Positions 18,537 to 35,006 of a stretch of DNA of 36,680 nucleotides are shown here, in pieces. The notes under the pieces were generated by a model. It worked only from the letters and a program-made list of their open reading frames with translations. It did no database searches and was not told the origin of the DNA. Source of the DNA: a virus; the IMG/VR virus record IMGVR_UViG_3300010354_016967, positions 1 to 36,680 of that record; one strand, 5' to 3'. The first letter of the stretch is position 1. The number at the start of each line of letters is the position of its first letter. Made by a program: the position numbers and the translations under genes.

Positions 18537-19241
18537 CTACCAGTTTTTAACCATGTGTTTGTCGCTGTAGTAGCATTCGTTCAGAATCTCTTCCCACTCG
18601 ACCTTGTATGTAGCTTTATCTTTCTCTCCCAGTACTCCAAACCCTCTCACCCTCTCGTGACAACAATAACACTTACCGCAGTGACCGTTCTTAAAATGAT
18701 TAACTGTGCAAGAGTGTGTTTTCCATAATACATCTTCACGTTTCAGCAAATAAAAAATCTCTACTGTGTTTTGCTTCAATAGATCAATAAATGGTAAGTA
18801 CACTTTTTCTGAACGAACAAGCTGTTTGTGTTCTGGAGTAATCACTTTGGTTGGAGCAAACATTAGTTTGTTAGCACCATTAAACCACCCATCAAAATTA
18901 CACAACCCGCTTGCCAAAGTTCTCAATCTTTTGTTTTCGGGAGGGCTCATGTCATGAAAGCGATCGTGAATGACAGTAAAATGATCAGCAGATACACCAA
19001 GGTATCTGCTAAGTTCACGAGCTTTTTCTGCTTCCCATCTTCTGCGATCTATATGAGCAGAAAAGACATACACATTGTCCCTGCCATAGAAACGCTCCAG
19101 GAGGAGATAGAGTGCTGCAGACTCCACTCCTCCTGACATAGACATAGCTACTGTTTTTAACTCACTTGGAAAAGCATAATCTAAGTCAAGCTCTGTCCCG
19201 TCTCGAAAGTTTAAGCAGCCTTTGCCCATACATCTTCCCAT
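18537..19241 (-). CDS. QueC-like PP-loop enzyme (7-cyano-7-deazaguanine synthase family)
   Basis: 234 residues. The PP-loop is SGGVES (36-41), with E where QueC has D. The zinc site C178, C188, C191, C194 (CGKCYCCHER) has the C-x9-C-x2-C-x2-C spacing seen in QueC, followed by R and F as in that family. QueC turns carboxy-deazaguanine into preQ0 using ATP and ammonia. The gene lies between NrdB (31-base overlap) and a zinc ribbon, so it is made with nucleotide-precursor enzymes. The start may be the ATG at 19229, which has GGGAAG upstream. A different amide- or nitrile-forming activity is possible because of the D-to-E change. Confidence 0.75.
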   Translation of the reverse strand: MGRCMGKGCLNFRDGTELDLDYAFPSELKTVAMSMSGGVESAALYLLLERFYGRDNVYVFSAHIDRRRWEAEKARELSRYLGVSADHFTVIHDRFHDMSPPENKRLRTLASGLCNFDGWFNGANKLMFAPTKVITPEHKQLVRSEKVYLPFIDLLKQNTVEIFYLLKREDVLWKTHSCTVNHFKNGHCGKCYCCHERVRGFGVLGEKDKATYKVEWEEILNECYYSDKHMVKNW

Positions 19242-20200
19242 GATCCAGTCATCGCACCTTTTGCATAGTCAGTGGCACGATTTTCAAAAAAGTTAGTATG
19301 TGTAGGAGCGTTAATCATCTCTTCAACCCAAGGCAAAGGATTTTTCTTTACTTTCATAATACCTTTAAGACCAAGACTGATAAGGCGACGATCAGTAATA
19401 TACCGGATATAACGTTTAACGTCATCAGCGTCCAAGTTATCCATACCACCCAAGCTAAATGATAGATCGATAAACCTATCTTCGAGCTCAACCATTTTTC
19501 CAGCAATCGTATAGATCTGGCCTTTAAGCTCATCATTCCAGATATCCCTGTTTTCTTCAACAAATGTTCGGAACAGCTTAATCATCGACTCTGCATGCAT
19601 TGTTTCGTCCACGATGCTCCAGGTCACAATCTGACCCATACCTTTCATTTTGCCATGACGAGGAAAGTTCAGCAACATGATGAAGCTCGAAAAAAGCTGC
19701 ATTCCCTCTGTAAACGCGCTGAATGCCGCAATCTGCTGTGCAATGGTCTGTTGATCCTGGCCTGCAATCGATAAGAAGTAATCGTGCTTCGCTCTCATCT
19801 CTTCGTACTCTAGAAACTCGTTGTACGTTGACTCCGGCATCCCTAAGGACTCGATCAAGTGACTGTAAGCAGCTACATGAAGGGCTTCCCTTGCAGCAAA
19901 ACCACTCAACATCATTCGCACCTCCGGCTGCGGAAAGTACGGTAAGTAGTTCTTGACGTAACCGCCCGCAACGTCCACATCTCCCTGCGTGAAGAATCGG
20001 AAAATGTTGGTTAGGAACTTCTTTTCTGATTCGGTTAATCTGTTTTTCCAATCTTTTACATCCTCAATCATCGGTACTTCTGTATGGAGCCAGTGACTTT
20101 GTTCATGCTTGAGCCATGCATCATATGCCCAAGGATAGTTAAATGGTTTAAATGAGTTTCGTTCATCTGTTAATTTTAATTTTCTTTTTGTTGCGTTCAT
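19211..20200 (-). CDS. nrdB: Ribonucleotide reductase class I, beta subunit
   Basis: 329 residues with all expected metal ligands: D74, E105, H108, then E165, E199 and H202 (VDETMH). A tyrosine at residue 112 (EALHVAAY) fits the radical tyrosine. The protein makes the di-metal/tyrosyl radical cofactor needed by NrdA to reduce ribonucleotides. It lies in one operon with NrdA and a thioredoxin but is separated from nrdA by three genes, an unusual order. C-terminal residues end SWEDVWAKAA, which would be the NrdA-docking tail. Confidence 0.93.
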   Translation of the reverse strand: MNATKRKLKLTDERNSFKPFNYPWAYDAWLKHEQSHWLHTEVPMIEDVKDWKNRLTESEKKFLTNIFRFFTQGDVDVAGGYVKNYLPYFPQPEVRMMLSGFAAREALHVAAYSHLIESLGMPESTYNEFLEYEEMRAKHDYFLSIAGQDQQTIAQQIAAFSAFTEGMQLFSSFIMLLNFPRHGKMKGMGQIVTWSIVDETMHAESMIKLFRTFVEENRDIWNDELKGQIYTIAGKMVELEDRFIDLSFSLGGMDNLDADDVKRYIRYITDRRLISLGLKGIMKVKKNPLPWVEEMINAPTHTNFFENRATDYAKGAMTGSWEDVWAKAA

Positions 20201-20201
20201 A

Positions 20202-20846
20202 TTACTCCACTGAATATCTGAGTGTTAGGCCTAACTTGAGGCCGTTAAATTTACCTGTACAATGTATGTGTTTTGTCTCAAACATCATAACGCTTCCTGG
20301 TACATAAGGAAACGCTTTTCCTGACAATCCAAAATAATATTCATGAGGATGATCTAAATGCTTTTTCCAAAACTCACGATCAATGTTATTGTTCGTATGT
20401 CCCTCTATTTCACTGGTACCTGGTATACCTTGTTCAGGCCTAGTTACGTTGAAACCGTTTCTAAAAAATTCATTAACCTTTTGTACCATTGACCATGTTA
20501 TAGGACTCATATGCCATCGTTGATCAAATACAATAAAATCAACAGGTGGTCCTTCAACAAAAATAGGAATGACAAAATTAATAGATAAGGGCCACTCTAG
20601 CTGGTGATCAACATGAGGATGATATGGTGTTTTATGCTTGTAGAAATTACCGCCAAGAAACTTTTTAATGTTGGGATAATGTTCACGAAGCACAGGTTCC
20701 ACCCACTCTAAGGCTTTTCCTGGATTAGCCTTTTGCATTACAGGAGAACGATAAACTCCTATTGAGTCATAATACTCATGTAATTTTCTGATCAGTTTTT
20801 TATCAAAAACATCAAATTTTTGTTCTGCTTCAATGGGACCAATCAT
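20202..20846 (-). CDS. 2OG-Fe(II) oxygenase-like protein
   Basis: 214 residues. H78-x-D80 (PYHPHVDHQLEWPLS) and a distal histidine (H193 or H195 in ETKHIHCTGKF), followed by R210 as the likely 2-oxoglutarate contact, match the double-stranded beta-helix oxygenase pattern. It may hydroxylate a protein or a nucleotide. It sits inside the ribonucleotide reductase operon, one base from nrdB, so a base or nucleotide substrate is worth considering. It is unrelated in detail to the AspH-type protein at 658-1215. Confidence 0.72.
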   Translation of the reverse strand: MIGPIEAEQKFDVFDKKLIRKLHEYYDSIGVYRSPVMQKANPGKALEWVEPVLREHYPNIKKFLGGNFYKHKTPYHPHVDHQLEWPLSINFVIPIFVEGPPVDFIVFDQRWHMSPITWSMVQKVNEFFRNGFNVTRPEQGIPGTSEIEGHTNNNIDREFWKKHLDHPHEYYFGLSGKAFPYVPGSVMMFETKHIHCTGKFNGLKLGLTLRYSVE

Positions 20847-21275
20847 TTAGCACCAACTTGTTTTTGCCTCGCCGAAATACTCTCTTGCAAAACCGTTTGC
20901 AATGAGTTGCTGACGAAGACTTTTCCCGTCTAAAACAACATCACCCAGGACACGACCACCATATTTGTCCCAGTCCATAAGAACAATCTGTCTCTTTTGA
21001 CTTGAATTGATAAGTTTTTTGGTAAACTCAGTTGCTGCTTCTCCTCGCTGAGCCTCTGAAGGGCACTTAGCTCTGAAGCTTTTCTCGGGAGTGTCCACTC
21101 CATATACTCTGATTGACAGCTCTTTCTTAAGAGGGTCTGGCAACCAATTGGCTTGAAAGCCAACGGTGTCGCCGTCGATGACCCTCGTAAGGACTACATC
21201 GTACGTGACACCGGCCTTTTGTTGTGCAATTGCAACTAGTGGTACAAAAAATAAGAGTGTAAGTAATTTTTTCAT
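20847..21275 (-). CDS. Secreted thermonuclease (SNase family)
   Basis: 142 residues. A signal peptide is clear (KKLLTLLFFVPLVAIAQ, cleavage near residues 17-19). The nuclease domain has every key residue of staphylococcal nuclease: D36 and D61 (calcium), T62, and catalytic R56, E64 and R108 (RVYGVDTPE, YGGRVLGDV). The mature part is about 123 residues, near the family minimum. It cleaves DNA and RNA. A secreted nuclease inside a reductase operon is odd; it may act in the periplasm on host or competing phage DNA and recycle nucleotides. Confidence 0.85.
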   Translation of the reverse strand: MKKLLTLLFFVPLVAIAQQKAGVTYDVVLTRVIDGDTVGFQANWLPDPLKKELSIRVYGVDTPEKSFRAKCPSEAQRGEAATEFTKKLINSSQKRQIVLMDWDKYGGRVLGDVVLDGKSLRQQLIANGFAREYFGEAKTSWC

Positions 21276-21523
21276 TATAGTTCTAGAGCCTCCTCTAATG
21301 CTTGCCTTGATACAGCCCCACTTACTCTTGTAATAATATTATTGTTTTCATCCAACAAGATCATGTGGGGTATTCCCTTTATACCGTAAAACACCGTCGA
21401 CTCCATATTTTCATCGACATTTACCCGTTCAATTACATAAGGGATATCCATTGTTTCCATAATGGTATCCATTTGTTTGCATTTTGTACACCACGGTGCT
21501 TCAAATTTTAATAGTCTTTTCAT
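21275..21523 (-). CDS. Thioredoxin/glutaredoxin-like protein
   Basis: 82 residues with redox motif WCTKC (C12, C15) and the cis-proline motif GIPHMIL near residue 50. The size is between glutaredoxin and thioredoxin. It directly follows nrdA and almost certainly supplies electrons to the reductase, replacing host thioredoxin. It shares its last base with the nuclease start. Confidence 0.85.
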   Translation of the reverse strand: MKRLLKFEAPWCTKCKQMDTIMETMDIPYVIERVNVDENMESTVFYGIKGIPHMILLDENNNIITRVSGAVSRQALEEALEL

Positions 21524-23326
21524 TTAACCCTCGCACGCTAAACACATATCACCACCGGCCACTGCTTTCAAATCAATTTCTTGAATAACTTGTCTTTCTA
21601 TCTTTTTTGAAACCTTGTCTGCTTTAGCTAGTTTCTCGCTACGGCAATAATATAAAGTCTTCAAGCCTAGCTTCCATGCCATAAAGTGCACAGCATGAAT
21701 ATACTTAACGTCACTATCTGGTCTGAAGAACACGTTGAGAGATTGGGCTTGATCAATATACTGCTGTCGATCTGCAGCATGTTCAATAAGCCACCGCTGA
21801 TCAATCTCCATAGACGTCTTAAATACATCCTTTTCCCAATCCGACAACACGTCTAAATGCTGAACAGAACCATCATTAGCAATAATACTTGACCAGATAT
21901 CGTTGTAATCAAGCTGCCCAGTGAAGTCACTGTTGCACTTTTCCTGAATAATCTTGTCAAGGTATTTGTTCTTGTTTAGGTGCGCTCCGGATAGAGTATC
22001 TTGCCGATATGCGTTTGCTCTATAAGGTTCAATGCTGGGGCTAGTGTTTCCCATGATGATAGAAGAAGAAGCATTGGGAGCAATAGCCATAACGTGGGCA
22101 AAGCGGCGCCCAGTACCAGCGCAGTCAGGGGCTTCACCTCGCTCTTTACCCAGTTCCAAATTTGCCGCATCGAGTTTCTCTCTTATAAGTTTAAATATCT
22201 TTGTGTTTGTTGATTTAGCAATCACTCCTTCAAATGGAGTGTTTTTCTTTTGTAGATATGCATGGAAACCGAGGCTACCAACACCAATGCTCCGTTCCAT
22301 GCTAGCACTATATCTTGCGCGTGATATGCTATCAGGAGCATTATCAATGAAATGCTGTAAAACGTTATCAAGCATTTCAGCAATGTCCCGAAGAAAAAGT
22401 TTGTCATCTTTCCAATCATCATAATACTCCAGGTTAACTGAGGACAAGCAACACACAGCTGTTCTATGTTTATCTGTTGGAAGGATGATCTCGCTGCATA
22501 GATTTGATTGTTTAATGCTTAGTCCAAGTTTCTTTTGAAACTCTGGCATCATTCTGTTGCTCGTATCAATGAAGTGGAGATATGGTTCACCCGTATGCAT
22601 ACGCAACTCAAGAATACGCTGCCACAGCTCTCTAGCTGATACCACTTCACGAACTTCTCCATTATGCGGATCCTTCAGTTCCCACGAATCATCCGCACTG
22701 GGATCTAACATACAACGTTCAATGATTTGCATAAACGAATCAGGAATGTTTACTCCATGATGCAAGTTCATGGCTCGCATGTTTGGATCCCCTGTCGGTT
22801 TACGCATATCTAAAAATAAGAGAATATCAGGGTGACTGATATCAAGATATGCAGCGTAACTACCACGGCGAGTCCTACCTTGTCTATATGCAAGCGAGCT
22901 AGCATCATAAGTGCGTAAGTGAGGCATAATGCCAGTAGACTTATCATCAGCAGAGCGGATACCAACACCGATTCCAATTCCACCTCCTAGCATTGAAAGC
23001 CAGTTCACCTCTGAAAGACAGTCCACCAGACCTTCTGCACTATCATGGAGATAAGGTAGAAAACATGAAATAGGCAGGCCACGACTACTACGCCCAAAAG
23101 AGAGGATAGGAGTAGAATATGAAAGCCAATGCTTACTAGAATACTCGTAAAGACGTTGCGCATGATCCGGGTTACTACTAAATTGTTTAGAAACGAAGGC
23201 GAAACGATGCTGCGGACTTGTTTCATCATCCTTCATATAAGACTCGCGAAGTCTTTTGATACCGAGCTCATCAAACAATGAATCGCGCGAAAGATCGATA
23301 TCAATACCAAGGTAGGTATCAGCCAT
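21524..23326 (-). CDS. nrdA: Ribonucleotide reductase class I, alpha subunit
   Basis: 600 residues, shorter than the E. coli protein (761) because the N-terminal ATP-cone is missing, so dATP feedback inhibition is probably lost. Catalytic elements are present: C88 (LPISCFLP), N275-C277-E279 (NLCSEI), the partner cysteine in AVCCLSSVNL near 292, the radical-transfer tyrosine pair in KTLYYCRSEK, and the C-terminal redox pair MCLACEG. A GGAG ribosome site precedes the start. It reduces ribonucleotides to deoxyribonucleotides for phage replication. Confidence 0.95.
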   Translation of the reverse strand: MADTYLGIDIDLSRDSLFDELGIKRLRESYMKDDETSPQHRFAFVSKQFSSNPDHAQRLYEYSSKHWLSYSTPILSFGRSSRGLPISCFLPYLHDSAEGLVDCLSEVNWLSMLGGGIGIGVGIRSADDKSTGIMPHLRTYDASSLAYRQGRTRRGSYAAYLDISHPDILLFLDMRKPTGDPNMRAMNLHHGVNIPDSFMQIIERCMLDPSADDSWELKDPHNGEVREVVSARELWQRILELRMHTGEPYLHFIDTSNRMMPEFQKKLGLSIKQSNLCSEIILPTDKHRTAVCCLSSVNLEYYDDWKDDKLFLRDIAEMLDNVLQHFIDNAPDSISRARYSASMERSIGVGSLGFHAYLQKKNTPFEGVIAKSTNTKIFKLIREKLDAANLELGKERGEAPDCAGTGRRFAHVMAIAPNASSSIIMGNTSPSIEPYRANAYRQDTLSGAHLNKNKYLDKIIQEKCNSDFTGQLDYNDIWSSIIANDGSVQHLDVLSDWEKDVFKTSMEIDQRWLIEHAADRQQYIDQAQSLNVFFRPDSDVKYIHAVHFMAWKLGLKTLYYCRSEKLAKADKVSKKIERQVIQEIDLKAVAGGDMCLACEG

Positions 23327-23343
23327 AAAAACTCCAGTTATTA

Positions 23344-24027
23344 TTATTCAGAAACTAATTGTGACGTGAGAGGAAATATATCCGAAATGACTTGAGCACA
23401 AGCTCTTGCAATCTCCATGTGCTCTTTTTGCGTGCCGTTGGCTGATCGGAGTTGTATATAGTGAATCCACGAACGCAGAGTTCCGTTCATGTATAGGCGT
23501 GATTCCATCAATCCTTCTGGTAAGACAGCACGTGCTTGCTCCTTGGCAATCCCCTTTGCCAAAGCCCATTGATATGCATTTTTTGCTTCAGTAGTCACAC
23601 GAAGCTGCATTTGTTGCCATTGATATTCAAGCTGACGGTGTGTATCGTTACTCAAATCCAAAGGTTCAGAGTTCTGTCGGTTTGTACTATCTTGTAGCCG
23701 CGCTTCTCGTAGCACAAAGTCAAGGTCCTTCGTTGGGTCAGCATATCGCTGACTGAATTCCTGAAAACTAAAACTTCTATGCCGCAACATTTGTCGGGCA
23801 ATGTCTCTTGTGGTCGTGACTTCAAGGCAGATCGAGACCATCTCAAGTGGGGACCAGTGTTTGTGCTTGACGAGGTATTTGACCAGCTTTTCCGCAGTCT
23901 CTGTATTGAGCTGATTGGATGGATTGCTAACCCGTGCACAGTATGCAACAAGCTCTTGAATGTCATAAAGACCCTCATCATACAGTTCACGCGAAGGTTT
24001 CTGATAGCTAATTAGCTTAACCTTCAT
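23344..24027 (-). CDS. thyX: FAD-dependent thymidylate synthase ThyX
   Basis: 227 residues from the ATG at 24027, with AAGGGA upstream; further in-frame codons lie inside the preceding gene. The ThyX signature RHR-x7-S is R82-H83-R84...S92 (RHRSFSFQEFS). It makes dTMP from dUMP using methylenetetrahydrofolate and reduced flavin. The gene is between primase and nrdA, consistent with a nucleotide supply operon. Confidence 0.95.
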   Translation of the reverse strand: MKVKLISYQKPSRELYDEGLYDIQELVAYCARVSNPSNQLNTETAEKLVKYLVKHKHWSPLEMVSICLEVTTTRDIARQMLRHRSFSFQEFSQRYADPTKDLDFVLREARLQDSTNRQNSEPLDLSNDTHRQLEYQWQQMQLRVTTEAKNAYQWALAKGIAKEQARAVLPEGLMESRLYMNGTLRSWIHYIQLRSANGTQKEHMEIARACAQVISDIFPLTSQLVSE

Positions 24028-24241
24028 TTTTAATAATCCCTTCAACCCAGTTTTCACACACATCCTCAGCATATTGCATATTAAAGTGAGTGAGGGACCT
24101 TAGTCCTACAGGCTTGTTGTTCTCAAAAAACTCTACCTCGTAGGTTGGTTCACCTTCGATCATGTAAAGACGAGCTGTACGTTCATTACCTTGCCCGTAA
24201 AATTCACTTAACCACACTTTTCTTCCTACACTTTTTTCCAT
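24017..24241 (-). CDS. Conserved small phage protein
   Basis: 74 residues, beta-rich in the middle (RLYMIEGEPTYEVEFFENN) with a helical end (MQYAEDVCENWVEGI). Relatives seem to occur near primase or thyX in marine phages, but I know of no function. It overlaps primase by 16 bases and thyX by 11. Confidence 0.6.
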   Translation of the reverse strand: MEKSVGRKVWLSEFYGQGNERTARLYMIEGEPTYEVEFFENNKPVGLRSLTHFNMQYAEDVCENWVEGIIKNEG

Positions 24242-25251
24242 TGTGTCAACCTCATTTTTGCTTGTAAATCATGAAACGTATTCTCTTTAATAATCTTTTG
24301 TATATCTTCAGAGGATATACCACCACAGATCATTTCATTTATATCTTTATATTGCATGCTATCGGGCCAAATACAAACATTATATCCCATGTCAATAGAT
24401 TTATCAATAGCTTTTACAATATCTTTGTTTCGAGGCTCATTGTCATATACCATTACAGTATTGGAAGGAACAATACCTATCTTTAAAGCCGTTTTATCAA
24501 GGTAAGCACTACCCATGGCAATACAATTAGGAAGGAACATAGAATCAATCGGCCCTTCCACAACAAAGACTTTCTCTCGTACATCTAACTTCTCCAATCC
24601 ATAAACACGTGGCTTCTCATCGTCAAGTATTATCGTTATGTATCTCGGCTCTACATTGAAGAATGCGCGGCCTTGATAACCAAACAAATTGCCATTCTGA
24701 TCTACAAATGGTATCACTAAACGAGGTTCATCCTTCTTACTTAGATCAAACTTATCTGGTTTAAGCTTATTTGTCCACGTTTTGAACTTAGGTGCATAAA
24801 AAAGCTTTGAATGCATGACGGATGGAATCTTCCTTGCAACCACATATCTTTTAGCAGGGTGATCCACTTCAAGCTGAGATATCTTTTTCAATTCAGAAAG
24901 CGCTGTATACTTAATGAATTTCGGTGTAATAAACTTAGAAATGTCGGGAGCCGGTTCAACTATCCTTTCAGTGTTTCCAACACGTTCTAGGAAGGTTTCA
25001 CGCCGGTACTCATTGTATGCTGCAGGATCCACTTGCTCCAGGAACTTGGAGAAGGGTATTGTGATGCCACAGTTGTGACAGGTGTAGATAAATTTACCAT
25101 CCTTGCCTAAAATGTATCCGCGCGCCTTTGTTTTACTTTTCCGTGAGTCACCGCATATTGGACAACGCATATTCCACACGTTATCATCTTTACGAGCAAA
25201 CATAGAAAGTCTAGGTGCAAGAGCACCAATATACTTCACATCAATCCACAT
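24226..25251 (-). CDS. DnaG-type DNA primase (T4 gp61-like)
   Basis: 341 residues, the size of T4 gp61. N-terminal zinc site C30, C33, C58, C61 (CPICG...CHNCG) binds template. The TOPRIM domain is seen as VFVVEGPIDSMF with E232 and D236, and MVYDNEPRNKD later gives the next acidic residue. It makes RNA primers for lagging-strand synthesis. The start at 25251 is preceded by GAGGAG at nine bases, but that site lies in the 3' arm of a strong hairpin (25257-25294), and a promoter overlaps the hairpin. Confidence 0.92.
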   Translation of the reverse strand: MWIDVKYIGALAPRLSMFARKDDNVWNMRCPICGDSRKSKTKARGYILGKDGKFIYTCHNCGITIPFSKFLEQVDPAAYNEYRRETFLERVGNTERIVEPAPDISKFITPKFIKYTALSELKKISQLEVDHPAKRYVVARKIPSVMHSKLFYAPKFKTWTNKLKPDKFDLSKKDEPRLVIPFVDQNGNLFGYQGRAFFNVEPRYITIILDDEKPRVYGLEKLDVREKVFVVEGPIDSMFLPNCIAMGSAYLDKTALKIGIVPSNTVMVYDNEPRNKDIVKAIDKSIDMGYNVCIWPDSMQYKDINEMICGGISSEDIQKIIKENTFHDLQAKMRLTQWKKV

Positions 25252-25256
25252 AATAA

Positions 25257-25294
25257 TTAACTCCTCAAAGCCCAGTGCGACTTTAAGGAGTTAA
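25257..25294 (-). promoter_or_regulatory. Hairpin that covers the primase ribosome binding site
   Basis: On the - strand TTAACTCCTTAAAG (25294-25281), a 10-base loop, and CTTTGAGGAGTTAA (25270-25257) pair over 14 positions, one a G-U wobble. The 3' arm contains GAGGAG, the primase ribosome site. A transcript started at the local promoter (about 25273) would lack the 5' arm and leave the site free. Confidence 0.75.
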
Positions 25295-25308
25295 AGAGGA
25301 AAAGTCAA
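25280..25308 (-). promoter_or_regulatory. Candidate sigma70-type promoter for the primase-nrd operon
   Basis: On the - strand, -35 TTGACT (25308-25303), a 17-base spacer and -10 TAAAGT (25285-25280, two mismatches). It lies in the 60-base gap between the lysis block and primase and would drive the DNA metabolism operon. Confidence 0.6.
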
Positions 25309-25311
25309 CAG

Positions 25312-25554
25312 TTAAAGTTTCAAGAAATGTGAGGCAAGGTAACCAAGGACGACAGCACCTCCGACGATCATCCAACGCCATTTTTCAATTGCAGTTAGGC
25401 GCTTGTCAATATCATCAATTTTTTCCATCATACTCTTGTGCTGTTCTTTTGAATCAAAGCGGAAATCTTTGATCTCAGAGCTCAAATTCTTTAATTCATT
25501 TTCCAAAACCGCAATCCTCGAGGTAGTATCAAAAAGTTCCATTGCTTGTTCCAT
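25312..25554 (-). CDS. Coiled-coil protein with C-terminal membrane anchor (XhlA-like)
   Basis: 80 residues: a heptad-patterned coiled coil (about residues 12-58) followed by a basic/aromatic edge (KWRWM) and one membrane span (about 61-78). The layout resembles hemolysin XhlA-type phage proteins, which assist holins. It is the last gene of the lysis block, which supports a lysis role, but similarity is architectural only. Confidence 0.6.
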   Translation of the reverse strand: MEQAMELFDTTSRIAVLENELKNLSSEIKDFRFDSKEQHKSMMEKIDDIDKRLTAIEKWRWMIVGGAVVLGYLASHFLKL

Positions 25555-25555
25555 T

Positions 25556-25771
25556 TTACTTTTTAGGTGGAACTTCCGTTCCCTCTAGTTTCTTATGAAC
25601 TTTCATTTCTTTACAATTTTGTTTTGGATTGCCTTTGGCATCCTTAACAACTTTCCCGTCTTTGTCTTTGACATCGACACATACTTTTGTTGTTTCTTTT
25701 TTGTCTTCTGCTGCATAGCTAGGCAGTACAACAGCAAAAGCAACGGCTAGTGAAAGAAAGAAGTGTTTCAT
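25556..25771 (-). CDS. Small secreted basic protein
   Basis: 71 residues with a clear signal peptide (KHFFLSLAVAFAVVLPSYA, cleavage after residue 20). The mature part is lysine-rich with two cysteines (KVCVDVKDKDG...QNCKEM) that could form a disulphide. It lies in the lysis block and probably acts in the periplasm. No family recognised. Confidence 0.6.
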   Translation of the reverse strand: MKHFFLSLAVAFAVVLPSYAAEDKKETTKVCVDVKDKDGKVVKDAKGNPKQNCKEMKVHKKLEGTEVPPKK

Positions 25772-25780
25772 ATTTATCCT

Positions 25781-26254
25781 TTATAGAAGTGGCTGTGCTG
25801 CTGGAGGGGGAGCAGGTTTCCCATTAAAACCAGCCACAACAGGTTGTACGGGCTCTGACGCTGCAACTGGTCCAAATCCGACTGTAGGCTCTATACGCAT
25901 AGGAGCAGAAGACATTATTGGAGGAGGTGAGGACGGAGGAGGGGGTTTGTTTGCTGCTTCGAGCGCTTTTGCTTGCAAGTCTTTGTCACCACCAGCGAGC
26001 ATAATACCTGACAGCGTTCCTGTTAGGAATGTAGCAACAGGAATAATTAATTCAAAAAATTTGTTATCAACAGGACTCATTCCATTCATTGGTTGTGTTA
26101 CAAATATAAGACTGTATAACACAACAAACACAATACCAAAAAGTGTCAGACCAAGGATTATACCAATAAAGAACTTTAGCCGTGCGTTCAATTCACTTTC
26201 AGTGTACTTTGGGCCTTCCCATAAATCTTTAATCATTTGCAACTCCCTGGACAT
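25781..26254 (-). CDS. Two-span membrane protein with proline-rich tail (holin candidate)
   Basis: 157 residues. Two hydrophobic spans (about residues 27-51 and 68-86) are followed by KPPPPSSPPP and a long proline/alanine-rich end. Its place between spanins/endolysin and primase makes it one of the holin candidates here. Holins are diverse and cannot be called by sequence alone. It overlaps the lipoprotein gene by 22 bases. Confidence 0.55.
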   Translation of the reverse strand: MSRELQMIKDLWEGPKYTESELNARLKFFIGIILGLTLFGIVFVVLYSLIFVTQPMNGMSPVDNKFFELIIPVATFLTGTLSGIMLAGGDKDLQAKALEAANKPPPPSSPPPIMSSAPMRIEPTVGFGPVAASEPVQPVVAGFNGKPAPPPAAQPLL

Positions 26255-26469
26255 ATATTGTTTGTTGTAGTATTACCGTTGCCGTTACCGTTTGGTTTGT
26301 ATTTGTCTTTTTCATAATGTCTTAGATCCTCTGGGCACGTGCCATTAGCGCTGCAGTAGGGTTTCTGACAATATTGCTTTTCCCAATTGTTGGGGTCTTG
26401 GCATGGATATCGATACCTCTCTTGACATGCAACAATGAAAGGTAGTATTAAAAGAAGTATATATTTCAT
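26233..26469 (-). CDS. Small cysteine-rich lipoprotein
   Basis: 78 residues. KYILLLILPFIVAC is a lipoprotein signal with lipobox IVAC (lipidated C15). The mature part has six more cysteines and ends with a glycine/asparagine linker (NGNGNGNTTTNN). It is probably anchored in the outer or inner membrane facing the periplasm. It may help lysis or superinfection exclusion; the function is unknown. Confidence 0.62.
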   Translation of the reverse strand: MKYILLLILPFIVACQERYRYPCQDPNNWEKQYCQKPYCSANGTCPEDLRHYEKDKYKPNGNGNGNTTTNNICPGSCK

Positions 26470-26470
26470 A

Positions 26471-26641
26471 TCAGCCTTTGATAATGTAAACTATTGACAC
26501 CAGTATCATGCCTACAATAACAATAGTTTTCCAGCTAATATCATCTATTTTCATCTTGAACCACGGACTTGATACTTCTACTAATTCTTTGTCATCACCA
26601 GGCGTATTAGCCTGCTCTAATTTATTATCTTTAAGCTTCAT
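26471..26641 (-). CDS. Small single-span membrane protein
   Basis: 56 residues, ATG 26641 to TGA 26471. A charged N-terminus (KLKDNKLEQANTPGDDKE) leads to one membrane span near the C-terminus (TIVIVGMILVSIVYIIKG). It fits tightly between the endolysin gene and the lipoprotein gene, with gaps of 3 and 1 bases, which argues it is real. It could be a holin or antiholin partner. Confidence 0.6.
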   Translation of the reverse strand: MKLKDNKLEQANTPGDDKELVEVSSPWFKMKIDDISWKTIVIVGMILVSIVYIIKG

Positions 26642-26644
26642 AGC

Positions 26645-27268
26645 TTAATGTCCATTAAGAACATGAAGAGCATGCTCGTAATGTTTAATCCTATCTTCTA
26701 AGCCGATTGTACCGCCGTTGATACGTTTGGTTAGCGTAACCATATCGCCTTTATCGGCCCATTTATTCAAGTTATTTGATTCCCAAAACCAACAAGCGCT
26801 TTGAGCTGCACCTTCAAACGTCTGAAGATATTCTGAAGCTTCTTCAACAGTGATACCAAGGCTACCAGCGAAGAATGTGTAATTGTCTCTACCTGTAAGT
26901 TGAATCAATCCTCTACCACAGAAACGCCACCCATCACCAGACTCCTCGGGACCGTTACCCATGCGACTTGCATATGCCCGGTTTGCAATCGCTTCTTGTT
27001 TATTTGGACGAGAGGCATAGTCTTTTGCAATCTCTGGTGGGAATAATCGTGGCCATATACGTGTTAGAGTTTCTGCTCTATAATTCAGATTCTCTTTGAG
27101 CGCTGTAAATCCACCCGACTCATGTGAACATTGTGCTATGAAAGCAGCTATTCTCTGTTTAGTGTTGATTTCGTAATCAGGCAGTAGCTGACTGAGCGCG
27201 TTGTGCCAGTAATCAATGTATGGATTTTTTGGCAGTAATTTTTTTAGTTGTTCTTTTGTGAGTTCCAT
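26645..27268 (-). CDS. Endolysin, GH19 chitinase-like
   Basis: 207 residues from the ATG at 27268; an in-frame GTG at 27274 lacks a ribosome site. FIAQCSHESGGFTALKENLNYRAETL contains the catalytic glutamate (HES) of GH19-type endolysins, and GRGLIQLTGRDNYTFF and the INGGTIGLEDR end are typical. It cleaves the peptidoglycan glycan strand. There is no signal peptide, so export needs a holin. It is flanked by the spanin pair and small membrane genes. Confidence 0.92.
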   Translation of the reverse strand: MELTKEQLKKLLPKNPYIDYWHNALSQLLPDYEINTKQRIAAFIAQCSHESGGFTALKENLNYRAETLTRIWPRLFPPEIAKDYASRPNKQEAIANRAYASRMGNGPEESGDGWRFCGRGLIQLTGRDNYTFFAGSLGITVEEASEYLQTFEGAAQSACWFWESNNLNKWADKGDMVTLTKRINGGTIGLEDRIKHYEHALHVLNGH

Positions 27269-27274
27269 ATACAC

Positions 27275-27556
27275 CTACTTTTTATTAAAAACAGCATCGT
27301 GAATTTGTTTTTGTTCACGATACCATTTAACAAGTAACTCATGTTTTGCACCGCATTCATGATATAATGTATAATTCTGAGTAACTACTTTTAACAATTC
27401 AGATATTCTTTCTTCTTTTTCAGGCAAAAGAACTAGATCCGGGCAACGTTCTGTAAGCATCTGTGGTGGCTCCGCTAACGCGTGTCCAACAGGTACAGAT
27501 ACCGTTGCACATCCCACACATAACGCAGCTACTGGAGCAAGAAACAAAAATTTCAC
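27275..27556 (-). CDS. Outer-membrane spanin (o-spanin) lipoprotein
   Basis: 93 residues starting with GTG at 27556 (AAGGAGG six bases upstream; GTGA overlap with the previous stop). KFLFLAPVAALCVGC is a lipoprotein signal with C16 as the likely lipid site, though -3 is C and not the usual L. The mature part is short and helical (ERISELLKVVTQNYTLY). With the next gene upstream it forms a two-component spanin that fuses inner and outer membranes at lysis. Confidence 0.75.
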   Translation of the reverse strand: MKFLFLAPVAALCVGCATVSVPVGHALAEPPQMLTERCPDLVLLPEKEERISELLKVVTQNYTLYHECGAKHELLVKWYREQKQIHDAVFNKK

Positions 27557-27990
27557 TTCGATCCTCCTTTTGCTGCTTCGTTGTGTATTCTTACAACCTC
27601 TTCTGGTACTTTACAAATATCGTTGTATTTAACAATTTCGCGATCTACAACTCTAACAATCTGTTCGCCTTTTTCGCGAATCACTTTTGTACGATCAACG
27701 TACTTGGTTATTGTTTCTACTGTTACTTGACCAGCTTTTGCATTAGCTTCTGCTGCTTCTTTTTCCAGCTGCGCAACACGAGCTTTCCATGCATCTTCAT
27801 TCCATATGGCACCACTCATAAACGTGCCAAACGCCACAAACAGTATTGAAATGATTTGGATTGGTGTACGATATACGTACAGTGCGGGAATTGGAATAAA
27901 CTTTAGCAGGTATGTGACTGCTACGCCAACGACACCTACAAAAAATACAGCATAAAATAACCAATCAGGAAGAAACTTTAGTATCCACAT
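27553..27990 (-). CDS. Inner-membrane spanin (i-spanin)
   Basis: 145 residues. Two hydrophobic spans (about residues 10-31 and 43-63) are followed by a long helical, coiled-coil periplasmic part (ARVAQLEKEAAEANAKAGQ onward). This is the expected partner of the downstream lipoprotein. Classic i-spanins have one span; two are seen in some T4-like phages. It overlaps the o-spanin gene by four bases. Confidence 0.72.
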   Translation of the reverse strand: MWILKFLPDWLFYAVFFVGVVGVAVTYLLKFIPIPALYVYRTPIQIISILFVAFGTFMSGAIWNEDAWKARVAQLEKEAAEANAKAGQVTVETITKYVDRTKVIREKGEQIVRVVDREIVKYNDICKVPEEVVRIHNEAAKGGSK

Positions 27991-28159
27991 TGGGTTGTTT
28001 CCTTCTTAATAGCCTCTTAGTCATAATTTGTTTCCGACCGCCAGGCTCACCATCAGGACCAAAACCAATTCCTGCAACGTTACCTCCTGCGACAGCGTTA
28101 ATTGCAACGCTACCCGTAGAAAAGCTTACATCTTCGCTGAATTGTTTAAAAGTCTTCAT
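27965..28159 (-). CDS. Small head-associated candidate with capsid-targeting-like N-terminus
   Basis: 64 residues. The start MKTFKQFSED resembles the T4 capsid-targeting sequence MKTYQEFIAE, which directs internal proteins into the prohead. A glycine-rich middle (AVAGGNVAGIGFGPDGEPGG) and basic tail (TKRLLRRKQPNVDTK) follow. It overlaps the spanin gene by 26 bases. Packing into the head is inferred from the N-terminus only; the expected protease site after E is not matched (E-D). Confidence 0.55.
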   Translation of the reverse strand: MKTFKQFSEDVSFSTGSVAINAVAGGNVAGIGFGPDGEPGGRKQIMTKRLLRRKQPNVDTKVSS

Positions 28160-28551
28160 ATATTTCTCAATATGTTAACAATGTTTTCATCCATTGGTAT
28201 GCTTGAACTTATTATATCCTTACCATCAATTCCTATATTGTGTACTATATCAGGCATGTATCCCATTAATATAAGAAAAGGTTTGAGGAAATGATAATGT
28301 CCTCGCAACTTTAAGAACAACAACCTCGTTGCTGCTTCAACCCCAAAAATATTATAGAGAACGGTCAAATGGTTGATAATTAACCGTTCTTTTAACTCTC
28401 CTGTTTCTTCATATCTATTGAATAATCTTTTTATATACTTAAATCTATTCAAGTCGTCGTAGAATTCCAGCGTATCATAACAGTGAGGATTGTCATAATG
28501 CTTTGCTGCGTATAATAAAAAATTTGTTTCGTCAAGCTTGTCAGTGTGCAT
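28156..28551 (-). CDS. Conserved phage protein (DUF7207-like)
   Basis: 131 residues, helical, with FLLYAAKHYDNPHCYDTLEF at the start and RLIINHLTVLYNIFGVEAAT in the middle. I recall it as conserved among marine T4-like phages, perhaps DUF7207, to be confirmed. There is no enzymatic motif. It is coupled by ATGA overlap to the downstream gene and lies among virion genes. Confidence 0.62.
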   Translation of the reverse strand: MHTDKLDETNFLLYAAKHYDNPHCYDTLEFYDDLNRFKYIKRLFNRYEETGELKERLIINHLTVLYNIFGVEAATRLLFLKLRGHYHFLKPFLILMGYMPDIVHNIGIDGKDIISSSIPMDENIVNILRNI

Positions 28552-29105
28552 TAATAACTACCTAATGATAACCTCTTCCATGTATTTGTCGTCACACACA
28601 CGTAGATGTAATTTGAGTCATACGCAATCTGACCTTGTACACCATTAGCAGATGAATTAGCCGGGACAGAACTCCACTTAAAGGCTGTATTCTGCATGGT
28701 ATCGTCTGCAAAATGTACTGCTGCAATATGCAATTGATCAAAATAGTGTGTTGCGTTACCAATATCATAATTTCCAGGCGTATGAGGAACAACGTTGGAA
28801 TGGACTGTACCGTGTATGTGAATTAATTGTTCTGCGTTAGATCCAACAACACCGAGATACACATTGCCTGTAAACGATGCATCCTCGACAGCAATCACGT
28901 TAGCCGTAACATTAGATGATGTTAGTGTAGTTATCGTAGCTACATTTGATGTAAACGACGATAACAAGCTATTACGAAAATTGTTCGCTGTGATGCGCTT
29001 TGTGTTTGCTGTACCAGTATTGTTAGCAACGACGACAACGAAGTCTGAGTTCGCTAGCGTCGTTGCTGCAGGCAGCTCACTAATTTTTTTAGCGCGATCA
29101 ACCAT
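28551..29105 (-). CDS. Fibre-like virion protein
   Basis: 184 residues. The N-terminus KKISELPAATTLANSDFVVVV is typical of phage tail-fibre or neck proteins, and the C-terminus has GQIAYDSNYIYVCVTTNTWKRLSL, a small beta domain often at the end of fibre subunits. Asparagine/threonine-rich strands lie between. It is adjacent to another virion protein. The exact virion position cannot be given. Confidence 0.65.
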   Translation of the reverse strand: MVDRAKKISELPAATTLANSDFVVVVANNTGTANTKRITANNFRNSLLSSFTSNVATITTLTSSNVTANVIAVEDASFTGNVYLGVVGSNAEQLIHIHGTVHSNVVPHTPGNYDIGNATHYFDQLHIAAVHFADDTMQNTAFKWSSVPANSSANGVQGQIAYDSNYIYVCVTTNTWKRLSLGSY

Positions 29106-29109
29106 TTAA

Positions 29110-29991
29110 TTAAGCGTTCGAATCAGGTAGTTTAGTATCATCAGAGCCGTCGCCAGAAATCTGACGCGTGGCAACTAGACACTCATACTGAACACGACCA
29201 GCACGGCCACCCTGGCCAACTGTGCGGATGTTCCAGCCAGCTGTAACACGTTTGTTCTTACCACCGGCAAGAGAAGCAATTGCTGTTGCTGTTTCACCAG
29301 TCACGCTATGTCCAGCCTGTGCACCTGTTCCAACAGAAGCAAGATTGATAAACACACCACCGTTATAATCTTCACGATCTGCCGAAAGCTGAATAGCTGA
29401 TGAATTAGCAACAGTTACATAGTATGTTGTATTATTTGCAAGGCCGCCAATCGCAGTATTACCTGCACCAACAAGATACGTTACTTGATCACCGTTAGCT
29501 AACAGTGCAACGTTGGCTGTACCCAGAAGGATAAAACCTTTTACAGTGCTGTTACCGACAACAACACCTGTTGAGTTGCCTGAGAATGTAAGTGCAGCAG
29601 GTGCGGCGATAGTTACTGTAGGATTAGTTGTATAACCAACACCGTTGTTACTAATATTGATAGCTGAAATACGGCCAGTTGCATTAGACGATGCATTAGC
29701 AGCGGCATTTGTTGTACCAGCACCAGAAACAGAAGTGATTGTTACAGCTGCATTAGCATTGTAGCCTGAACCTGCCGAAGTAATAACAATTTCAGCAATG
29801 TTTGTAGCTGTTACCCCGGCTTCTGTTCCATCGACGGCGTACATACCGTGCGTTGCACCAGCAAAATAAGCATTTGCTGTTGTATTTCCATAAAGTGCGT
29901 TAGCATTAGCGCGTGTTGGAGCTTGGCCAAGCTGTGATGGCGCCCAAATCACGCTGTTAGATGCTACGTCTGATAGTCCCCATAATGGCAT
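29110..29991 (-). CDS. Virion structural protein with beta repeats
   Basis: 293 residues. The start PLWGLSDVASNSVIW resembles a virion protein common in T4-like cyanophages and pelagiphages. Two similar units, GSGYNANAAVTITS and GVGYTTNPTVTIAA, point to tandem beta elements. The C-terminus (GRAGRVQYECLVATRQISGD) is basic/polar. It has a late-promoter match (30019-30026) and an AAGGAGAG ribosome site. Confidence 0.7.
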   Translation of the reverse strand: MPLWGLSDVASNSVIWAPSQLGQAPTRANANALYGNTTANAYFAGATHGMYAVDGTEAGVTATNIAEIVITSAGSGYNANAAVTITSVSGAGTTNAAANASSNATGRISAINISNNGVGYTTNPTVTIAAPAALTFSGNSTGVVVGNSTVKGFILLGTANVALLANGDQVTYLVGAGNTAIGGLANNTTYYVTVANSSAIQLSADREDYNGGVFINLASVGTGAQAGHSVTGETATAIASLAGGKNKRVTAGWNIRTVGQGGRAGRVQYECLVATRQISGDGSDDTKLPDSNA

Positions 29992-30018
29992 TTTGTCTCT
30001 CCTTGAGATGTTTTTTAA

Positions 30019-30026
30019 TATTTATG
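30019..30026 (-). promoter_or_regulatory. T4-like late promoter candidate (CATAAATA)
   Basis: The - strand reads CATAAATA (30026-30019), 7 of 8 to the T4 late -10 TATAAATA. It is 28 bases upstream of the virion gene ending at 29110, with a ribosome site between. The predicted start is near 30013. It overlaps the stop of the preceding gene. Confidence 0.55.
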
Positions 30027-30210
30027 ACTCTTTGGATGTCAGCAAGTCTTGACGATACTGAGATGTCTTTATTGTTGTTTTAACGATCGAAACCTGTTCC
30101 CCAGTCCCGCTTGTGTTTGCTTCGGGACCGGGATAAAGAACTTTGCCTTGTTCCATCAAGTGACTATGAGGAGTTTTGGGCGGCTTTTTACTTAAAACAA
30201 ATACTGGCAT
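30022..30210 (-). CDS. Hypothetical small protein
   Basis: 62 residues from the ATG at 30210 (an in-frame GTG is at 30216). Proline- and lysine-rich start (PVFVLSKKPPKTPHSH), a tyrosine/proline patch (LYPGPEANTSG) and a polar C-terminus. No domain or membrane span. It sits among virion genes. Confidence 0.5.
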   Translation of the reverse strand: MPVFVLSKKPPKTPHSHLMEQGKVLYPGPEANTSGTGEQVSIVKTTIKTSQYRQDLLTSKES

Positions 30211-30212
30211 GA

Positions 30213-30428
30213 TCACTCTTTTGGTTTAACGTGCTTAATCTTTGCACCCATTTCCGCAGCATCATCCAACTCAGTATCATTAAGGTGTTCGCCCACCTTG
30301 ATACCATCAGCTAATTTGTGGCCAACAGCATGAACCTTATACTTACCACCTCCTGCATCCGATACATGCAGGGCTTGGGGGTGGAGTTTTTGGTCTGCTT
30401 CAGCAATGAATTGAGAAAAGCTTTTCAT
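30213..30428 (-). CDS. Internal head protein candidate with capsid-targeting sequence
   Basis: 71 residues. The first eleven, MKSFSQFIAEA, match the T4 capsid-targeting sequence MKTYQEFIAEA at 7 positions, including the FIAEA that T4 gp21 protease cuts after E ([LI]-x-E-[AG]). After it comes a small beta/alpha module (GKYKVHAVGHKLADGIKVGE). In T4 such proteins (IPI-IPIII, Alt) are packed in the head and injected with DNA, some to block host defence. Role inferred from the N-terminus and neighbours. Confidence 0.62.
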   Translation of the reverse strand: MKSFSQFIAEADQKLHPQALHVSDAGGGKYKVHAVGHKLADGIKVGEHLNDTELDDAAEMGAKIKHVKPKE

Positions 30429-31157
30429 TTACATACCCTTTTTCTTTTTGTGATTCATGTGACCTTCGGAAACAAGAATCTCAATATCTTCGGTGTTTAC
30501 ACGCTTAATACCTTCAGCGAACATTACATCGTACCATGCAATATTACCATCTGCATCTGGCTCTGCATGTTGACTTGTCAACGTACGACCTTCACCATAC
30601 TGTTCAGATTTTACATGAATAGCACACTGGTGAGTACTATTGCCTGGTGTATCGCGTTCCTCTTTCTTCATCTTCTTATCTGCTTTCTTCATGTCAGCGT
30701 CTTTACCACCGTCATCAAAAGTAGAAGATTTACGAGTGTACACTGTTCCTGTACCTGTTGTCTTTTTATCGAACTTACCAGTGCCTTCTGCAGCACGACG
30801 CTCTTTTGCTGCTTTGAGCATGTCTTCCCAACCTTCTTTACGAACACCACGGCCATGAAGTACGTCACCATGTGTGATCTTATCACGTGGAGGTTTCAGG
30901 GCGGCAAGCTTTTTCTCTTTCTCGTTACGAGGATGAGAACCTTCTGCAGCTTCAGCTTTCATGTTCTTTTTTGCCATACCAGCCGCATCGGAGTGAGCAG
31001 CGGGGTCTGCTTTTGGTTCTGGTTGCTTAGGCATCTTCATAGCTTTAGCAGCCATCTTCTCGTTAAGAGCGTTGAGCTCTGTAACATACTTCTGACGTGA
31101 GCTTTTGTTGATTTCGGTAACAGCAGCAACAAGGCTCTGCGATAAATCTTTAATCAT
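30429..31157 (-). CDS. Basic mosaic protein, probable head or virion component
   Basis: 242 residues from the ATG at 31157, which has AAGGAG upstream; a TTG at 31181 is rejected. It is lysine/alanine-rich and probably disordered through the middle (KKADKKMKKEERDTPG). The C-terminal module CAIHVKSEQYGEGRTLTSQH...GNIAWYDVMFAEG is a small beta domain I recall in several marine T4-like phage proteins. The HMNHKKKKGM end is basic. It may be a scaffold or DNA-condensing protein. Confidence 0.58.
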   Translation of the reverse strand: MIKDLSQSLVAAVTEINKSSRQKYVTELNALNEKMAAKAMKMPKQPEPKADPAAHSDAAGMAKKNMKAEAAEGSHPRNEKEKKLAALKPPRDKITHGDVLHGRGVRKEGWEDMLKAAKERRAAEGTGKFDKKTTGTGTVYTRKSSTFDDGGKDADMKKADKKMKKEERDTPGNSTHQCAIHVKSEQYGEGRTLTSQHAEPDADGNIAWYDVMFAEGIKRVNTEDIEILVSEGHMNHKKKKGM

Positions 31158-31167
31158 TTGTTTCTCC

Positions 31168-31773
31168 TTAGTCGTTATCAATGATTTTTAGTTTGCGTTG
31201 CATTTTCATATTTCTTGAGATACGGAACTTTGTATTATCTATGTCCATATCTTTTGGCTCAGGTGTTTGTGCAAGTGAAGGACGTGAAAATTTTTTAGTT
31301 ATTTCTTCTGGTGAAACCTCCGTCTTCGGATTCAAATCCTCTACTTTATGATATGACTTAATCTTGTCTATATGATCCTGCACAAACGCATGTTCTTTTT
31401 CTAAGTTTGCTTCCTTGGCCATCTTCATTGCTTTTTCAGCAATCTTTTCAGCTTGTTGTATGTCTTCGCCAGTAGCCTTTTCCGAAGCAATCACACTTTT
31501 TTCCATAGCAAATAATTGATCTAGAAACATTGCTGCTTTTTCTGCTTTGTTTCTGTCAACATCTGCAGGCAAACTAGAATAAAGTATTTGAGCTTTTGGG
31601 CACATTTCGAAATGTGTAGTTTTGTAACCACCGATAACGATTTGATCTTTGTAGTGTGTCTCGATCTTTTTCTTTTGTTCATAGATCGAAGCAAGAGCTG
31701 ATCTAAAGCTCTTATAAGATGATTCTGTTTTTGGGCGTGCACGAATCACGCTCGTTAGAGATCTGTAACTCAT
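31168..31773 (-). CDS. Hypothetical helical protein in virion region
   Basis: 201 residues, mostly helical and charged. The first third is basic (SLTSVIRARPKTESSYKSFR), the middle has long helices (EDIQQAEKIAEKAMKMAKEA) and the end is polar with NMKMQRKLKIIDND. Nothing enzymatic is seen. It is coupled to the Dps-like gene by ATGA overlap. Prohead core or assembly roles fit but are unproven. Confidence 0.55.
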   Translation of the reverse strand: MSYRSLTSVIRARPKTESSYKSFRSALASIYEQKKKIETHYKDQIVIGGYKTTHFEMCPKAQILYSSLPADVDRNKAEKAAMFLDQLFAMEKSVIASEKATGEDIQQAEKIAEKAMKMAKEANLEKEHAFVQDHIDKIKSYHKVEDLNPKTEVSPEEITKKFSRPSLAQTPEPKDMDIDNTKFRISRNMKMQRKLKIIDND

Positions 31774-32216
31774 TTTTCTTCTTCTTTGAGAACCGAACGC
31801 AACATATACAGATGGCCCTTGTGTGCAGTTATTCTATCTTGAATAACGTTTGACAATCCAAACTCACTATAACGTTCAGCAAGCCTGTACCCTTCCATCA
31901 GCGACGACAAAACCTTGTTGTTATCACTGTAGAGATTTCTGTACATAACCATTGCTTCAGGAGCAGGGTCTGTATCGATGATAGAAGTTAGTTCAGCTAT
32001 TCTTGCTGGACTCAGAGGTGCGTAAGCATCGAGCGTGCGAATTTGCTCGCCAAGCATATCGACAGCTCCGTTTACTTCTTCATACAGCTTTTGAAAAAAG
32101 GCATGGTGCTGAGGAAAATCATCTCCCTCAACATTCCAATGATACTGCTGTGCTTTCATACCAAAAGCAACAGTATCAGCAAGTACTACTTTAATTTGTT
32201 GAACTAATTCTTCCAT
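31770..32216 (-). CDS. Dps-like ferritin
   Basis: 148 residues. The Dps ferroxidase ligands appear with the right spacing: H26 and H38 (QYHWNVEGDDFPQHHAF), D53 and E57 (VDMLGEQIRTLD). Dps proteins form 12-mers that oxidise iron with peroxide and protect or bind DNA. Length and four-helix layout fit. The position among virion genes suggests it is made late and could protect packaged or replicating DNA. The ribosome site GAGGTAAAT is good. Confidence 0.85.
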   Translation of the reverse strand: MEELVQQIKVVLADTVAFGMKAQQYHWNVEGDDFPQHHAFFQKLYEEVNGAVDMLGEQIRTLDAYAPLSPARIAELTSIIDTDPAPEAMVMYRNLYSDNNKVLSSLMEGYRLAERYSEFGLSNVIQDRITAHKGHLYMLRSVLKEEEK

Positions 32217-32218
32217 AT

Positions 32219-33532
32219 TTACCTCGTTATCTCTTCCCAGTCCATCGATGCAAGAGCACTGACGGTATTGACTGATCCTGACATTGCAATTGTAAGCGGC
32301 TCAGGGGTATTTGTTAGCCCATTTCGCTGTAATTGAAACTTGAATAGCGCTTCTTTGAGAATATCAATAGTCTGTGAAGCTTGATTAGTTATACCAATGT
32401 ATCCTTGCGCAAGTACTTGTCCACCACTTAAGCCTGTAGCAGAGGTGTCATACTGAACGGAGTCATCTGCATTGACTGTTGTCCAGGAAGGAGATGTCAA
32501 AGTCGTTCCTCTGTATACTCTCCATGCAACACTACAAGGATTTGAATTAATTCCTAAAATAGACAAAGCTGTCAAAATAACAATAGCATCCAGATAGCCA
32601 GATCTTAGCTGAATAGAAACGATAGGATAATATGTACCTGCTGTTGTCAATGTTTTTGGCGTCTGAACTGGTGTACCAACAGATCGTTGATCACCACGCA
32701 ACTCATATCCACCCTCACTGATAACAGTAGAACACACCTGCTTCATTGTACTTGAGCTTGCCGTTGTTCCCGTGTTCTTAATCTCATATCGCAACGGCAG
32801 CGAAGCTGTTGTCATGTATGTTGAATCTATCACGTTAGCGTGATGGAACGAGTGACAGTGAATCATTTTACCGTTAATCACAAAGCCACATCTTACTGTT
32901 CCGAGACCAAGCCATTCAACATCAATGAAAAGAATCTGTGCTTTGGTAAGATCTAAAGTAAGTTGTGAAGGACTCGAGGGCACGGCGCCTAGGAGCGTGT
33001 CAATATTCCAGTTTGATTGAGAAACCCGTGTCTCACTAACTGAACCATTTACATAGGATCTCTCAACAAAATTAATTGTTGCCCCATCTTGCTCAAGATA
33101 AATTCCATTCTGCGCACCATAGTATCCTACACGTTGTCTTAAATTAGCCTTCGCTGAATTCATTACAAATGTACTCATTATCTGCAACGACTTACCTGGC
33201 TGATAAGAAAATACTTTTGTTGTTTCACGAATTATCTCTGCATTAGCTGTAGTATCAAGATTGAGAGCAACAAGACCAGCATTAGCATTATGAGCATACG
33301 TTGCAGTAGCTGTATTCGATGTGCTCCAGAGACCGTTGTCTTTGAATCTATGTGAAGAATCAAATAGTGTAAGTGGTGTTGACATCCTTGCACGACCAAA
33401 CGCATCTACAGCCACACCAGAAGGATTAGCTGGTCCAACTAATGAACCATATTGGTCCGCAAGCATGACGACCTCATATAAGGTCTTATTGTCTTGCAGG
33501 TATTGGTGTGTATCTTTTCTAAACTGTGCCAT
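32219..33532 (-). CDS. Virion structural protein
   Basis: 437 residues, mostly predicted beta. The N-terminus AQFRKDTHQYLQDNKTLYEV, then GVAVDAFGRARMSTPLTLFD, which recalls virion proteins of marine phages. Lectin-like strands follow (FINGKMIHCHSFHHANV). No enzyme motif is seen. It may be a tail or capsid decoration protein. It overlaps no neighbour but is one base from the upstream stop. Confidence 0.65.
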   Translation of the reverse strand: MAQFRKDTHQYLQDNKTLYEVVMLADQYGSLVGPANPSGVAVDAFGRARMSTPLTLFDSSHRFKDNGLWSTSNTATATYAHNANAGLVALNLDTTANAEIIRETTKVFSYQPGKSLQIMSTFVMNSAKANLRQRVGYYGAQNGIYLEQDGATINFVERSYVNGSVSETRVSQSNWNIDTLLGAVPSSPSQLTLDLTKAQILFIDVEWLGLGTVRCGFVINGKMIHCHSFHHANVIDSTYMTTASLPLRYEIKNTGTTASSSTMKQVCSTVISEGGYELRGDQRSVGTPVQTPKTLTTAGTYYPIVSIQLRSGYLDAIVILTALSILGINSNPCSVAWRVYRGTTLTSPSWTTVNADDSVQYDTSATGLSGGQVLAQGYIGITNQASQTIDILKEALFKFQLQRNGLTNTPEPLTIAMSGSVNTVSALASMDWEEITR

Positions 33533-33533
33533 A

Positions 33534-34961: not shown

Positions 34962-34965
34962 ATTT

Positions 34966-34997
34966 CCTCAGAGGTTTACCTTAGCCTAACTCTGAGG
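34966..34997 (-). promoter_or_regulatory. Hairpin covering the ribosome site of the 475-residue virion gene
   Basis: On the - strand CCTCAGAG (34997-34990) pairs perfectly with CTCTGAGG (34973-34966) across a 16-base loop. The 3' arm contains GAGGAAA, the ribosome site four bases before the ATG at 34961. No T-run follows, so it is not a terminator. Confidence 0.65.
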
Positions 34998-34998
34998 G

Positions 34999-35006
34999 TA
35001 TTTATA
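34999..35006 (-). promoter_or_regulatory. T4 late promoter match TATAAATA
   Basis: The - strand reads TATAAATA exactly (35006-34999), the T4 late -10 element. The expected start, six bases on, is near 34993, inside the 5' arm of the hairpin at 34966-34997. Transcripts from here lose the bases that would cover the ribosome site. Confidence 0.7.

Follow-up and report, generated by a model that had tools for sequence, protein, structure and literature searches.

The window, by which we mean the whole 36,680-nucleotide stretch of viral DNA that was analyzed (W where it is compared with other genomes), carries on its minus strand a DNA primase gene of the T4 gp61 family, a group of DNA-metabolism genes downstream of it, a long block of late genes upstream of it and, in the primase leader, a hairpin with a predicted promoter embedded in it. 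The features of this locus are as follows:

34999..35006, minus strand: TATAAATA, late promoter element of the T4 type, heading the late block
25312..34961, minus strand: late block of virion/tail genes, spanins, endolysin and a holin-like gene, all co-directional
25312-25554, minus strand: holin-like gene, directly ahead of primase
25303..25308, minus strand: -35 hexamer TTGACT, with TTGAC kept at the same position in relatives
25280..25285, minus strand: -10 hexamer TAAAGT, wholly within the 5' arm of the hairpin
25272..25276, minus strand: predicted transcription start, in the hairpin loop or at the first base of the 3' arm, placed from the position of the -10 hexamer
25257..25294, minus strand: hairpin of 16 pairs, identified by folding, shuffles and compensatory changes in relatives
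25294-25279, 25278-25273 and 25272-25257, minus strand: 5' arm, loop (6 nt) and 3' arm of the hairpin
25261..25266, minus strand: Shine-Dalgarno sequence GAGGAG of primase, fully paired within the 3' arm
25251-25249, minus strand: ATG start codon of primase, 9 nt from GAGGAG
24226..25251, minus strand: DNA primase of the T4 gp61 family, 341 aa (PHROG 47, E 4e-74; tblastn to annotated gp61)
19211..24072, minus strand: downstream DNA-metabolism genes, namely
23344-24072, minus strand: thymidylate synthase (td)
21524-23326, minus strand: nrdA
20847-21275, minus strand: nuclease
19211-20200, minus strand: nrdB

An earlier, sequence-only reading of this DNA had placed a late lysis/virion block directly upstream of primase, and such a block was indeed found to be co-directional, with a late promoter element of the T4 type at its head. 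The TATAAATA element has one match in the window, about 9.7 kb upstream of primase, where about two would be expected by chance; since this single match is not significant, the evidence for the element lies in its conserved place: in six of seven genomes it precedes primase by 9.5-12.9 kb on the same strand. A similar leader follows the element in four genomes (W, G006, G003, and G004), and the element is also found upstream of primase in G001 and G005. Its co-directional upstream position in six of seven genomes makes late read-through plausible. The cultured phages phiM12, DLP6, Melnitz-3, S-H34, and Mosig have a similar gene order, with nrd or td genes after primase and co-directional tail or unannotated genes ahead of it. 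The leader behind the late promoter of the window (34962-35006, minus strand) folds CCTCAGAG...CTCTGAGG over a Shine-Dalgarno sequence and carries the motif AGGCTAAGGTAAACCT; it is nearly identical in G006, and similar GGC..GG.AAACCT leaders were observed in G003 and G004.

The stem ahead of primase has 16 pairs without interruption, including two G-U pairs; the sequence-only reading had recognized this stem, but its count of 14 pairs with one G-U was too low. Computational folding, which that reading had suggested as a check, gave z = -5.2 for positions 25230-25330, none of 200 shuffles being equally stable, and z = -7.2 was obtained against shuffles in which the -10 hexamer, the Shine-Dalgarno sequence, and the ATG were held fixed. 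The hairpin alone, at -22.0 kcal/mol, exceeds in stability every other perfect hairpin of the window, the next being at -15.2 kcal/mol. As had been proposed, the stem covers GAGGAG of the primase gene: in the folding computation all Shine-Dalgarno bases are paired in the long RNA, and the predicted accessibility of this site is 0.00 in the long RNA versus 0.58 in the short RNA. The short RNA was taken from the predicted start, a fixed truncation at -20 being a poor proxy where the start lies at -17. The stop codon of the holin-like gene lies 17 nt upstream of the hairpin, and thus a terminating ribosome should not melt the stem. Folding of the plus strand gave z = -1.6 and nothing besides the complement of the palindrome, and a search of Rfam returned no match. 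Two other structured sites were observed on the minus strand of the window: a canonical terminator AAAGGGACTTCGGTCCCTTTTTTT at 14319-14346, just ahead of the ORF at 13990-14316 and overlapped by a TTGCCT-17-TAAAAT match, and a 13-pair A+T-rich hairpin at 1749-1778, which precedes the ORF at 1212-1727 by about 20 nt.

The promoter TTGACT-17-TAAAGT, already picked out from the letters of the window, is of the sigma-70 type and matches the consensus at 9 of 12 positions. On the sequence of W alone it is weak evidence, since comparable matches are common in shuffles (48 seen in 16.7 kb versus 38 expected); it is conservation across the primase leaders that makes the evidence strong. A promoter score of at least 9 was obtained for 37 of 41 distinct primase leaders, that of W included, versus 100 of 1083 control genes, and the spacer is exactly 17 nt in 39 of the 41. 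The control ORFs, used for both the promoter and the hairpin comparisons, are mechanical ORFs. Because transcription is predicted to start within the loop or right at its border, the entire 5' arm would be absent from the local transcript. The 5' partner lies upstream of the predicted start for every pair in the close relatives and for most pairs in the distant group.

A significant hairpin was found in 29 of the 41 distinct primase leaders versus 2 of 68 leaders from the cyanophage side (Fisher p = 1e-14), the primase leaders being drawn from metagenomic contigs, so that related sequences do not count as independent cases. The cyanophage-side leaders keep the same promoter without the hairpin, its strong version occurring in 51 of 68, for the most part with 14-25 nt between transcription start and start codon, which argues that the hairpin is not a by-product of a promoter near a start codon. 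The promoter probably predates the hairpin. Leaders L131-L210 from the cyanophage side combine a strongly conserved sigma-70 promoter with, in most cases, no recognizable Shine-Dalgarno sequence.

In phages whose primases are 69-80% identical to that of W, the stems are spelled differently and lie at the same place. Stem pairing, on whose preservation in relatives the sequence-only reading had staked its claim, is thus preserved despite different stem sequences. Covariation in this close group was assessed on an arm-anchored alignment of nine leaders with five distinct stems; a whole-leader MAFFT alignment, which misregistered the arms because loop and leader lengths vary, was not used. Five of eight aligned pairs have changed on both sides with 100% pairing, and sliding of the partner arm lowers pairing to 33-63%. 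The two arms of W pair mutually at -23.2 kcal/mol and with any relative's arm at -13.2 kcal/mol at best, in a swap test restricted to the close group, the arms of the distant group being split wrongly.

In the distant group (36-38% identity), the hairpins are short, at 7-11 pairs, and hold the Shine-Dalgarno sequence partly in the loop; part of these hairpins would stay in the primary transcript. Covariation in this group is weak when taken alone, with both partners altered in 2 of 11 pairs, a level reached by 23-207 of 500 shuffles. Several leaders depart from the full arrangement: (i) L035, L030, and L033 have the hairpin and no recognizable Shine-Dalgarno sequence, (ii) L019, L032, and L034 have part of this sequence in an internal loop, and (iii) L011, L012, L027, L040, and L044 possess the promoter and hardly any hairpin, or none at all.

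Ranking of hairpins that cover a Shine-Dalgarno sequence over 521 genes of the seven genomes placed the primases at positions 1, 2, 6, and 8 (P = 8e-7). In a strict scan of about 1 Mb, the primases of W, G002, G004, and G005 were found to have a promoter in a stem directly ahead of the start codon, as did a single non-primase gene; for promoter plus hairpin, strict scanning gave 19 cases observed versus 3 expected. A loose genome-wide scan for promoter plus hairpin was dropped, its counts being barely above those of shuffles in the larger genomes (35 versus 24 in G003, 21 versus 21 in G002).

Related elements were observed at other sites of these genomes. A second element of the same kind is found in G005 (L098:6038-6091), where TTGATT-17-TATAAT lies inside CCCCCTATAATCTTCTTATAGGGGGTTTTATTATG ahead of a 142-aa ORF without a PHROG match. 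Elements resembling that of T4 gene e, with TATAAATA in the loop or the 5' arm of a hairpin covering the Shine-Dalgarno sequence, are found at L091:700-748 in G005 and L112:16150-16192 in G001; the gene at the former site encodes an HNH/endonuclease VII-like protein, to be compared with T4 gene 49. Similar TTGACT-17 promoters are located at about 203275 of G003:C1 (L090:3275) and about 165893 of G004:C1 (L108:5893, minus strand); in both cases a terminator-like hairpin AATAGCATC..TGGTGCTATTTTTTT follows directly, with no ORF start behind it, and the site is a candidate small RNA or promoter-early stem-loop (PeSL).

We consider it likely that the primase element is a start-site-dependent insulator between the late and early transcription units. 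Its proposed working is as follows: (i) the sigma-70-type promoter ahead of primase would start transcription in the hairpin loop, (ii) the local mRNA, with a leader of about 22 nt, would contain only the 3' arm and leave the ribosome site free, (iii) primase and the td/nrd genes would be made early from this mRNA, (iv) late transcripts begun at TATAAATA, some 9.7 kb upstream, would continue through the lysis genes, and (v) the read-through RNA, possessing both arms, would fold and hide GAGGAG, so that the early genes would not be translated off late mRNA. Where a U-tract follows, as it does in nine leaders, the hairpin probably also terminates the late transcript. The sequence-only reading had ascribed insulation of primase and the DNA-metabolism operon to a lid over the ribosome site; the leader comparisons support the insulation, which would not be achieved by a translation block alone, since nine leaders score as intrinsic terminators. 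For W itself, the hairpin most likely blocks translation.

An alternative that we regard as unlikely is that the hairpin is primarily an intrinsic terminator of the late operon overlapping the primase promoter, a PeSL-like composite in which coverage of the Shine-Dalgarno sequence is incidental to a G-rich 3' arm; transcripts started inside the hairpin would lack the 5' arm and escape termination. Nine of the 41 leaders (L017, L038, L029, L039, L010, L036, L047, L072, and L053) have T5-T7 after the stem and a terminator score d > 0, as computed with a simplified re-implementation, and six of these nine belong to primases 69-74% identical to that of W. A comparable hairpin with T5 immediately precedes the primase ATG in cyanophage S-H34. 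W, too, is listed as terminator-like by the terminator scanner; however, its U-tract is broken (UUAAUUAUU) and its score sub-threshold (d = -15.6), and this poor tail makes a translation block the better reading for W. L013/L015, L019, L020, L032, L034, L037, L042, L073, and the L068 group likewise lack a good U-tract (d from -7 to -74), whereas the hairpin still lies over the Shine-Dalgarno sequence and/or the start codon, and in L019 and L020 stem pairing reaches the start codon, an extension that no terminator needs. Several of the strongest hairpins could act as terminators instead.

The remaining alternatives were considered and rejected. The palindrome might act as DNA, either as a repressor operator over the -10 hexamer or as an extruded hairpin promoter, and the inverted repeat does span the -10 hexamer and is centred on the predicted start; however, arm sequences vary between 70-80% identical phages with pairing kept, which is not easily allowed for a sequence-specific operator, the G-U pairs present in nearly all stems fit RNA, and the cyanophage-side promoters at primase lack the repeat, all of which makes a DNA role highly improbable. 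Still less credible is that the stem stabilizes the 3' end of the late mRNA or serves as its RNase processing site and leaves primase unaffected, which would agree with a stable stem at the operon end but leaves the fixed position over the Shine-Dalgarno sequence and the -10 hexamer unexplained and gives no account of the absence of equally strong hairpins elsewhere in the window.

A broader form of the insulator reading, which we put forward tentatively and with slightly less than even confidence, is that a T4-like clade maintains, at one core junction, an insulator that has two modes and contains an early promoter. The hairpin would drift between terminator and ribosome lid, transcripts of its own promoter would always be exempt, and selection would act on insulation and on neither mechanism as such. 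Coexistence of terminator and ribosome-lid versions at one locus is a rare case, and having both there makes it directly testable what selection acts on, the stopping of RNA or of ribosomes. The insulator reading suggests that phages keep early replication genes from being remade off late messages, and that conservation of this insulation is strong enough to show up as compensatory changes. Such protection of early genes would be the mirror image of T4's guard against early lysis.

PeSLs were reportedly described (Arbiol 2010, Comeau 2014) as composite promoter-terminator motifs of T4-like phages, and they are said to mediate gene shuffling and to be dense in variable regions. The primase element resembles them in combining a sigma-70/early promoter with a stem-loop. 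Unlike them, it is essentially single-copy, precedes a core gene, and covers the ribosome site; it is no repeated exchange cassette, and its virion/lysis, primase, and td/nrd neighbors are conserved. A literature search that covered PeSLs through references cited in PMC4503421 found no description of this arrangement at an early gene.

In T4, leader hairpins of e, soc, 49, and I-TevI hide the Shine-Dalgarno sequence of the long read-through mRNA, with about 100-fold reduction in the case of e, and the local promoter lies in the DNA of the 5' arm, so that the local mRNA lacks this arm and is translated (PMC3014915, section 29). The comparison with T4 e made by the sequence-only reading was right in mechanism and left out PeSLs, an equally close relative. 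Like e, the element in W is computed to fold, in the long RNA, into a stable hairpin that sequesters the Shine-Dalgarno sequence. Its 5' arm contains the entire -10 hexamer and transcription is predicted to begin in its loop, so that the local transcript would lack this arm, again as in e. Two differences set it apart: (i) in T4 e a late local promoter (TATAAATA) is paired with an early long RNA, whereas the primase element has a sigma-70-type local promoter, a replication gene, and a long RNA that would be late, and (ii) part of the primase family has a U-tract, which is not described for e in PMC3014915. Since its local promoter is not late, the primase element follows the T4 e principle without belonging to the T4 e class. 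Hairpins of Aeromonas phage Aeh1 mobE and of T4 homing-endonuclease genes also sequester the ribosome site of a phage gene in RNA (PMC3014915, section 29); these are not core replication genes, and that paper mentions no sigma-70 promoter in the arm of their hairpins. The principle is known from T4 e, soc, and 49 and from PeSLs, and what appears to be new is its conserved, primase-specific version with an early promoter.
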